In this document: piece by piece, positions 3,389 through 37,153 of the stretch
Numbering within the stretch: the stretch's first letter is position 1
Layout of the letters: each line of letters begins with the position of its first letter
NCBI GenBank assembly: GCA_001820785.1
Contig: MHQW01000032.1
Coordinates: 73,385 to 113,727, forward strand
DNA from: Candidatus Sungbacteria bacterium RIFCSPLOWO2_02_FULL_51_17
GTDB lineage: Bacteria; Patescibacteriota; Minisyncoccia; Sungbacterales; GWA2-42-14
Length of the DNA: 40,343 nucleotides
Direction of reading: 5' to 3'
Program-made: the position numbers and the translations under genes
Notes under the pieces: generated by a model
Database searches by the model: none
The model's input: the letters and a program-made list of their open reading frames with translations, nothing else
Told to the model about the DNA's origin: nothing

Positions 3389-3457
3389 TGGAGTGGGTGC
3401 GGCGCGGTGGTGTATGATCGGGTGCATCCATTCCGTTGGTCATACTCTGATACTATT

Positions 3458-4570
3458 ATGAAACAATTTGGCATTATCATCGGCATATTTTTCGCGATCG
3501 CGGTTCTTGTGATCGTGGTGCTTCCATTTTTTCTTGGCTATTCACCGGGAGGGCCGGGAACCAACGATGGTTCCTCGGATGGTCCGGCACCGGCTGATCG
3601 CCCGAAAAGCAGTGTGGGCATTTTTCGGTCCGGAAACGGCGGGCGCGACTGGGAAGAAAAGAACACGAGCGAGGGAGACGACATCGCCAAATACCAGATA
3701 CTGCATTTTGCCATTCACCCGTTCAGCTCAAGCGTGATATTTGCCGGAATGAAGAGCGGCGGATTGTGGCGGACGGAAAATAACGGGGATTCCTGGCAGA
3801 AGATACAGGACCCGAACGGAGCGCTTCGCGGGGATTCTTCGGTTTATCGGGTCATATTCAATACCAACAATCCTCAAGAGGTATATCTTGCCGTCTTTCA
3901 GCAAAATCGCGGACGCGTGCTCAAATCCGAAGATCGTGGCAGTTCGTTTCGCGAAGTATACCAGACGCCGGTTGAACGGTTCGGGGTATTTGACGGTTTC
4001 GTTGATGCGTCAGGGGTTCTCTATATTGTAACGGGGCAGGGCGGGTTCTTCTCGTCCCATGACGGCGGGGATTCGTGGCGCGTTGTGCGCTGGTTTCGGG
4101 ACGGCATTGTGCGCTTGGTGGTTGACCCCAGAAACGAATCGCGCCTATTCGTGTTTACTGAAAAGGGAAGCATATTCAGGTCGGAGGATAAAGGCGGATT
4201 TTGGGTTGATATGACCGATGCCCTGTCGCAGTTTGAGGGCGCGTTGAAGTATCAAAAACTGCTCATTGACCCGGCGGACTCAACCCTGTATCTTGCGTCC
4301 GCCTACGGACTTCTCACCTCAATTGATGGCGGGAACCACTGGGTTGCGCCTTCCCTTATTATTCCGCCCGAGGCGCTTCCCATTCTTGCGGTTGCGCGAA
4401 GCCCCTTTGACGAGCAGATGCTCTACCTTGCCGCCTCTACACAATTATACGCATCGTCCGATCGCGGCATCAGCTGGTCGGTCATCTCTTCGCCCACGGG
4501 AGCCCGCATAGTTGACATGGTGCCCGATCCGCAAAGCCGCGATGTCTTTTTTGCGGTATTGGCGAAGTAA
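3458..4570 (+). CDS. Membrane-anchored beta-propeller with Asp-box (BNR) repeats
   Basis: About 371 residues. One N-terminal transmembrane anchor (residues about 4-26) is followed by a Gly/Pro/Asp-rich linker (about 28-48) and then an extracytoplasmic propeller. At least seven Asp-box turns of the form S/T-x-D/N-x-G-x-x-W/F are visible: SGNGGRDW, TENNGDSW, SEDRGSSF, SHDGGDSW, SEDKGGFW, SIDGGNHW and SSDRGISW. This is the architecture of sortilin/Ycf48/photosystem-assembly-like propellers. No sialidase catalytic residues are apparent, so I infer a binding or scaffolding role at the cell surface rather than an enzyme. The frame is open from 3407, but the hydrophobic anchor begins at MKQFGII. TGATACTAT ends one base before that ATG. 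Confidence 0.85.
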   Translation: MKQFGIIIGIFFAIAVLVIVVLPFFLGYSPGGPGTNDGSSDGPAPADRPKSSVGIFRSGNGGRDWEEKNTSEGDDIAKYQILHFAIHPFSSSVIFAGMKSGGLWRTENNGDSWQKIQDPNGALRGDSSVYRVIFNTNNPQEVYLAVFQQNRGRVLKSEDRGSSFREVYQTPVERFGVFDGFVDASGVLYIVTGQGGFFSSHDGGDSWRVVRWFRDGIVRLVVDPRNESRLFVFTEKGSIFRSEDKGGFWVDMTDALSQFEGALKYQKLLIDPADSTLYLASAYGLLTSIDGGNHWVAPSLIIPPEALPILAVARSPFDEQMLYLAASTQLYASSDRGISWSVISSPTGARIVDMVPDPQSRDVFFAVLAK

Positions 4571-35933: not shown

Positions 35934-36073
35934 GAGTTTATCGGAGGGTGGGAGAACTATTGTATTTGTGGCATGTTGCACCAGTCACGTCAAGATGTGG
36001 TGGAGGAAGCTTTTATTGTCGCCGCACTAAACATGTGGTACGGTGGTTCGCGGATCATTGACAGGGGATGCGG

Positions 36074-37114
36074 ATGAAAAACGGCATAGAATATCTGCTT
36101 GCACTGAACAAGCGGCATTCTGCGCTTTTTGATGCCATGCATTCCGAGCGTGCGCAGTACCGCGCTCTTCATAAGACGGAAATAGCGTTCATCAAGTGTA
36201 TGGATGGCCGGGTGCATGGCGCGGTCATGACGCGTACCCCGCTTGGCATCATTCAGCCATGGCGCAACCTTGGCGGTATGTTTGATATCGGGTGGTTCGG
36301 TTTCGCGCAGTCCATCAAGGAGTGGTTTGATTACGCCGTGAACCAAGGGCATGACTGTCTGGTGTTCGCCACGTACCATTTCGCCAAAGGAGACAGAGAA
36401 CGCGGATGTCGTGGGTTCCATTACGATATTGATGTCGCGCGGGAATCCACCAAAAAATTGAAAGACCAATTTGACCGCGTATTCCGCAGGCGCGGATTGT
36501 ACGCTATTCAATGCGGCATTGAGACCGATGAAGAGTCGTTCGTGTTGCATGGGGACGCGGGCGAGACGGTGTATCTGTCCGATCACGACAGGGGAACCGA
36601 TAGCGAGCTTAGTATGATGCTTTGCCGGTTGTATCCCAACATGCCGCATGGGGTGGTGAAAGATCTTCTGCGCCTTGTGCGGGGGAACATTGAACACTCG
36701 CGCGTGATACGTGCCATGAACCGTCCGGTCATTGATGTGGAACATCGCGAGTGGGTGCTTGCTGTCGGCCGGGGATTTGACTGGTTGCACGAAGTGAACA
36801 CGGCGCTCATCGTGGGGCCGTATGACCCGAATTTGGATGGCGCGATCAGAACGGCGGCAACCCTCATCAAGGGGAACATTGATGAGGGGAGAATTGATGT
36901 TTCTGCTCGTGGAGGCGTCGTGCTTCTTTCTTCAGCGCCGTATCGCGGCCTCACGGGTCCTGCGCGGTTTCTCGCCGCCGAGAAGGCAAAGTTTCTCAAC
37001 GCATTCGCATTAGAGGTCATACGGGAAGCCCCCGAGCTTCATGACCTTCTGCCTCGTCTGGAGGAGCTCACCGTGACGATGGATTATAATACCCGCCAGA
37101 TCGGCAGGGTGTAG
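36074..37114 (+). CDS. Carbonic anhydrase-like protein resembling the carboxysome-shell (CsoSCA, epsilon/beta-type) family
   Basis: 346 residues. FIKCMDGRVHG at residues 40-49 gives the beta-carbonic anhydrase zinc-Cys/Asp-Arg dyad pattern C42-x-D44-x-R46. The remaining zinc ligands would be H102 (FATYHFAKG) and C112 (RERGCRGFHYD). Their spacing of 10 is close to the 11 of CsoSCA and unlike the 3 of ordinary beta enzymes. A C-terminal region (EWVLAVGRGFDWLHEVNTALIVGPY, in part LAVGRGFDWLHEV; then ARGGVVLLSSAPYRGLTGPARF) lacks zinc ligands and could be the pseudo-domain known in CsoSCA. It would hydrate CO2 reversibly. No carboxysome or RuBisCO gene is present. ATG 36074 has AGGGG six bases upstream; ATG 36068 is the alternative. 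It has its own terminator. Confidence 0.65.
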   Translation: MKNGIEYLLALNKRHSALFDAMHSERAQYRALHKTEIAFIKCMDGRVHGAVMTRTPLGIIQPWRNLGGMFDIGWFGFAQSIKEWFDYAVNQGHDCLVFATYHFAKGDRERGCRGFHYDIDVARESTKKLKDQFDRVFRRRGLYAIQCGIETDEESFVLHGDAGETVYLSDHDRGTDSELSMMLCRLYPNMPHGVVKDLLRLVRGNIEHSRVIRAMNRPVIDVEHREWVLAVGRGFDWLHEVNTALIVGPYDPNLDGAIRTAATLIKGNIDEGRIDVSARGGVVLLSSAPYRGLTGPARFLAAEKAKFLNAFALEVIREAPELHDLLPRLEELTVTMDYNTRQIGRV

Positions 37115-37130
37115 ACACATGCAAAGATAT

Positions 37131-37153
37131 AGCGGCCACTAAGGCCGCTTTTT
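37131..37153 (+). terminator. Intrinsic terminator after the carbonic anhydrase-like gene
   Basis: AGCGGCC (37131-37137) / GGCCGCT (37143-37149), loop ACTAA, followed by TTTT. Confidence 0.9.

Follow-up and report, generated by a model that had tools for sequence, protein, structure and literature searches.

A predicted CsoSCA2-type carbonic anhydrase gene outside carboxysome loci in a small Candidatus Sungbacteria genome, and its paralogue behind the ATP synthase genes

The stretch of DNA analysed here (the window; 40,343 nt) carries on its plus strand, at 36068-37114, an uninterrupted open reading frame of 348 amino acids counted from an alternative start at the ATG at 36068. The profile, model and alignment evidence given below points to a CsoSCA2 gene, one for a free carboxysome-type beta carbonic anhydrase, at 36074-37114 (346 amino acids from the likely start). 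A Shine-Dalgarno-like AGGGG can be read from the sequence at 36063-36067 (+), 6 nt before the ATG at 36074, and the start at 36074, as the original prediction had it, is therefore probably right. Residues are numbered here from 36068, so that C42, D44, R46, H102 and C112 of that prediction become C44, D46, R48, H104 and C114. The 5′ neighbours, uvrC and a 123-amino-acid ORF without a family match, lie on the minus strand and are transcribed divergently; 3′ of the gene, at 37131-37149 (+), a GC-rich stem with a T tail resembles an intrinsic terminator, and uvrA lies downstream. The orientation of the 5′ neighbours and the terminator-like hairpin make it probable that the gene is expressed on its own, which agrees with the earlier description of it as monocistronic with its own terminator. 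Elsewhere in the window, two MreB genes occur within 40 kb of this small genome (445-1452 and 21501-22589, the latter with mreC and a gene for a penicillin-binding protein after it), and a beta-propeller protein of the Sortilin/Vps10-like type (Pfam, E = 2.9e-22), here in a bacterium with a small genome, is encoded at 3407-4570.

Single-sequence searches were uninformative and a profile was needed. Searches of Pfam, NCBIfam and PHROGs with the window protein gave no real match, a Cas_csx3 hit (E = 0.086) being rejected as noise, and the only sensible match in the PDB was an ordinary beta carbonic anhydrase, 3las (E = 0.46). As the protein alone also fell below the Pfam CsoSCA models, the evidence for its family comes from a profile built on 37 homologues drawn from whole genomes and from a structural model. 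The top five distinct sequences found by the profile in the PDB were all CsoSCA (E = 1.3e-16 to 1.1e-15), with an alignment running from C44 into the second half of the protein, and Pfam CsoSCA_cat matched 33 of the 37 profile members (E up to 1; best 1.2e-8). An AlphaFold model from the 37-homologue alignment had a mean pLDDT of 93.1 and a pTM of 0.90, an earlier model from three sequences having been poor (pLDDT 54). Its best Foldseek match was CsoSCA 8thm (E = 1.4e-17, TMq 0.74), with further CsoSCA matches to 2fgy (1.1e-15) and 9g4t (1.4e-15), and the next after these was an ordinary beta carbonic anhydrase at 1.4e-7, such enzymes scoring 1e-7 or worse. Sequence identity to CsoSCA was 17-20%. 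The model consists of one active and one zinc-less half, is matched by CsoSCA over its whole length, and shows no membrane anchor or extra domain in its 348 residues. Profile and fold comparison both place CsoSCA nearest among solved structures, in line with the CsoSCA likeness proposed in the original prediction, and we firmly assign the predicted protein to CsoSCA2, the non-carboxysomal CsoSCA.

The catalytic residues were compared in an alignment of 42 rows that included two CsoSCA fragments, the CsoSCA numbering being taken from Cys173 of HnCsoSCA, whose zinc ligands are C173, H242 and C253 (PMC12646314). C44, D46, R48, H104, C114 and H226 align with C173, D175, R177, H242, C253 and H397 of HnCsoSCA, and ten invariant positions, these six catalytic ones among them, are kept in 42 of 42 rows; C-x-D-G-R, H104 and C114 are invariant in the 37 homologues. 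On this alignment, the codons at 36197-36211 (+; C44-M-D46-G-R48) specify the predicted zinc-ligand cysteine and the Asp-Arg dyad, and those at 36377-36379 (+; H104) and 36407-36409 (+; C114) the other two predicted ligands. The CsoSCA-like zinc site that had been proposed from C-x-D-x-R and a His and a Cys 10 residues apart is thus supported, as is its distinction from the HxxC of common beta enzymes, the motif being H104-x9-C114 and Pro_CA a far weaker match. The second half, described earlier as a zinc-less domain of similar size, appears in the model as a second alpha/beta half, and it is not inert because it holds the invariant H226 (codon 36743-36745, +), the equivalent of CsoSCA H397. 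We take H397 to be the residue that stabilizes the transition state in CsoSCA. In beta carbonic anhydrases this is done by a conserved Gln or His, which is absent from DabA (PMC13144422).

The genome (1.24 Mb in 49 contigs, 100% complete) offers no carboxysome in which such an enzyme could reside, since family searches of all of it, at the thresholds used, found no RuBisCO. These searches likewise gave no match to CsoSCA_C, to DabA (PF10070) or, among carbonic anhydrases, to the ordinary beta class (Pro_CA). The window ORFs scanned include no shell or RuBisCO gene, so the earlier statement that none is nearby holds. C44 lies 43 residues from the start where HnCsoSCA has C173, and the large N-terminal domain is therefore absent. 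CsoSCA2 is distinguished by an N-terminal region of only some 40 residues, with no hook domain, and by a gene outside any carboxysome locus; the N-terminal hook/RuBisCO-binding domain and cso locus of carboxysomal CsoSCA are both missing here.

The same genome carries a second complete CsoSCA2 copy (on G000:C23), 59-60% identical to the window copy. It stands last in the ATP synthase operon, after atpD and atpC and on their strand, and only 9 bp separate it from atpC (L003:1492-2811). All CsoSCA catalytic residues, the H397 equivalent included, are kept in both copies. In the tree the two are each other's closest relatives (support 100/98), from which it follows that the gene was duplicated in this lineage, one copy being part of the ATP synthase operon, the other solitary; the window copy has the longer branch (0.63 vs 0.35). 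The CsoSCA rows of this tree are fragments from the PDB profile search, which makes the depth of the CsoSCA/CsoSCA2 split rough, and the placement of four long rows (L067, L068, L098 and L099) is unsure. The atpC gene before the second copy encodes 79 amino acids and matches only the beta-sandwich domain, so this epsilon subunit seems to be without its C-terminal helical domain.

CsoSCA2 is rare in the phylum: an even draw of 380 genomes contained it in 9, it occurred in 7 of 384 genomes from the class, and it was found in none of the five other genomes of the same family, nor were relatives found in viral contigs, phages or plasmids. The atpC-CsoSCA2 order on one strand occurs at two of 13 close Patescibacterial loci, the copy described above (G000) and one in another family of the phylum (G609, gap 118 bp), and at one more (G713) the gene points the opposite way, about 0.8 kb from an ATP synthase operon. 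Two of the 13 adjoin complex I/hydrogenase-like genes, the gene standing 104 bp before an Oxidored_q6 gene in G977 and behind a 49-kDa/30-kDa subunit gene in G878; the other eight, and the window copy itself, are not beside any membrane complex. Complex I/hydrogenase-like neighbours occur at L096, L099 and L046, and a divergent relative in G581 likewise lies behind such genes. In G581, too, two different carbonic anhydrase-like ORFs adjoin some kilobases from atpB (L080:4836-7413), one of 321 amino acids with an HxxC-like HKEC and one of 556 amino acids that is a distant CsoSCA2 relative with C-x-D-G-R. Among relatives of the Nitrosomonas MAG, all deeper loci with a full upstream flank have dabA, three antiporter-like genes and CsoSCA2 last, a dabA-dabB operon, and in a second clade the gene faces dab-type genes (L047, L050, L052) or adjoins hydrogenase-like genes (L046, L053, L054). 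A tandem CsoSCA2 pair ends the dab operon at G137:C7:70774-73015 (L018, L038). In some G055 relatives (G084, G136, G140, G161, G164) the matches are split or stop-interrupted, reflecting either decaying genes or assembly errors. The chance of two of 13 loci falling in the single post-atpC slot (about 1 in 1,100 each) is roughly 6e-5 uncorrected and about 0.01 once some 150 operons are taken into account; this rough estimate, on small counts chosen post hoc, is suggestive. By the starred branches the atp label changes at least three times on the tree, a scatter that may come from loss of a common arrangement.

Taken as a whole, the data are best explained, with good confidence, by a CsoSCA2 that acts in the cytoplasm as a zinc-dependent carbonic anhydrase of the beta class, and on sequence and model the window protein is very likely catalytic. 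It would be a single-chain pseudo-dimer, with C44, H104 and C114 of the first half as zinc ligands next to the D46-R48 dyad; the second half, which has no zinc, would complete this site with H226. The enzyme would interconvert CO2 with bicarbonate and a proton, free in the cytoplasm. If the ATP synthase of a fermenting cell possibly pumps protons, rapid hydration of CO2 would provide both protons and bicarbonate on demand. From the gene neighbourhoods we tentatively suggest a role in balancing CO2, bicarbonate and protons beside proton-motive membrane machines, with the window copy as a separately expressed, faster-evolving duplicate of the one in the ATP synthase operon. The host interaction that had also been raised found no support.

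One alternative is that CsoSCA2 is not a free housekeeping enzyme but binds proton-motive complexes, which regulate it (in this genome ATP synthase, in others DAB or hydrogenase-like complexes), local CO2 hydration feeding or draining membrane protons. Adjacency to complexes coupled to the proton-motive force recurs in separate lineages, and the 9-bp gap after atpC and the repeated changes of the atp label would fit this model; however, the lack of an anchor or extra domain in the model, the small post hoc counts and the solitary position of the window copy lead us to think it unlikely. Another possibility is that the CsoSCA fold has lost its catalysis or taken on a new task, such as sensing CO2/bicarbonate or hydrolysing CS2 or COS, CS2/COS hydrolases belonging to the beta carbonic anhydrase fold and appearing as weak matches (3vqj with the profile, 3ten with Foldseek). 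The faster evolution of the window copy would suit this, but the catalytic residues are kept in both copies and family-wide, and CsoSCA is clearly closer than the COS/CS2 hydrolases by profile and by fold, making it improbable. If the CsoSCA likeness were a misreading, the protein could be an ordinary beta carbonic anhydrase or of the DabA type, as C-x-D-x-R is common to all three and the 3las match is to an ordinary beta enzyme; both readings are refuted, as the E-values for CsoSCA are some ten orders of magnitude better than those for ordinary beta enzymes (profile and fold), there is no HxxC, Pro_CA reaches at best 0.089 in four of the 37 members, and none of the 37 matches DabA. Nor is the gene likely to come from a wrongly binned contig of a nitrifier or other bacterium: nitrosomonad relatives are 51-55% identical and the other genomes of the family lack it, but it is flanked by uvrC and uvrA, its contig is 113,727 bases long and carries ordinary core genes, and no sequence is closer to it in the tree than the second copy of this genome, so that contamination is very improbable indeed.

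We prefer the cytoplasmic carbonic anhydrase, and its recurrent neighbours (ATP synthase, DAB, hydrogenase-like) turn a CsoSCA2 of 'function unknown' into a testable idea, for which laboratory strains of Nitrosomonas carrying CsoSCA2 behind dabA-dabB provide a place to test the membrane link. A broader and decidedly speculative proposal, which we hold to be rather unlikely, is that CsoSCA2 is the soluble partner of DAB pumps, hydrogenase-like complexes and the Patescibacterial F-type ATP synthase, that it links the hydration of CO2 to the flow of protons, and that carboxysomes recruited their enzyme later from this more ancient arrangement. The membrane link, if true, would also bear on the origin of the carboxysome carbonic anhydrase.

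A free carboxysome-type anhydrase was rightly thought worth notice, though it is less novel than supposed, the kind having been published in 2022 as CsoSCA2, Patescibacteria included (PMC9164163), and again since (PMC11086599). These widespread proteins were named there, described as yet to be studied and surprisingly unstudied, and listed in Falkow-, Magasanik-, Moran-, Pace-, Staskawicz- and Uhrbacteria and in Nitrosomonas (PMC9164163). The second paper, from 2024, describes 'non-cso' CsoSCA sequences, one of them modelled, whose neighbours include genes for permeases and for NAD- or NiFe-hydrogenases (PMC11086599), and no activity assay is reported in the accessible parts of either. The window protein resembles these accounts, so far as available, in its short N-terminus, active and zinc-less halves, full set of active residues and position outside carboxysome loci; it differs in that a single small genome has two copies and that one of them is linked to an ATP synthase operon, neither point being mentioned in those parts, and the dabA-dabB linkage is not described there under the CsoSCA2 name. 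Literature searches on CsoSCA2, or on CsoSCA with ATP synthase operons, covering main texts, returned no report of a link, and the second copy ending the ATP synthase operon appears to be new, not having been found described elsewhere. With alpha-carboxysome CsoSCA (2FGY, 8THM, 9G4T) the window protein shares fold and catalytic residues, but it has no N-terminal hook/RuBisCO-binding region and a His-Cys spacing of 10 rather than 11. From the canonical beta carbonic anhydrase (PF00484), with which it has C-x-D-x-R and the core fold in common, it differs in H-x9-C for HxxC and in having a single active site for its two halves. DabA (PF10070), which belongs to the DAB pump for inorganic carbon and is the operon partner of CsoSCA2 in nitrosomonads, likewise has a Cys2His zinc site, an Asp-Arg dyad and two beta carbonic anhydrase-like domains; in it Leu replaces the His/Gln and there is no spontaneous CO2 hydration (PMC13144422), whereas the window protein, without a PF10070 match, keeps the His as H226.
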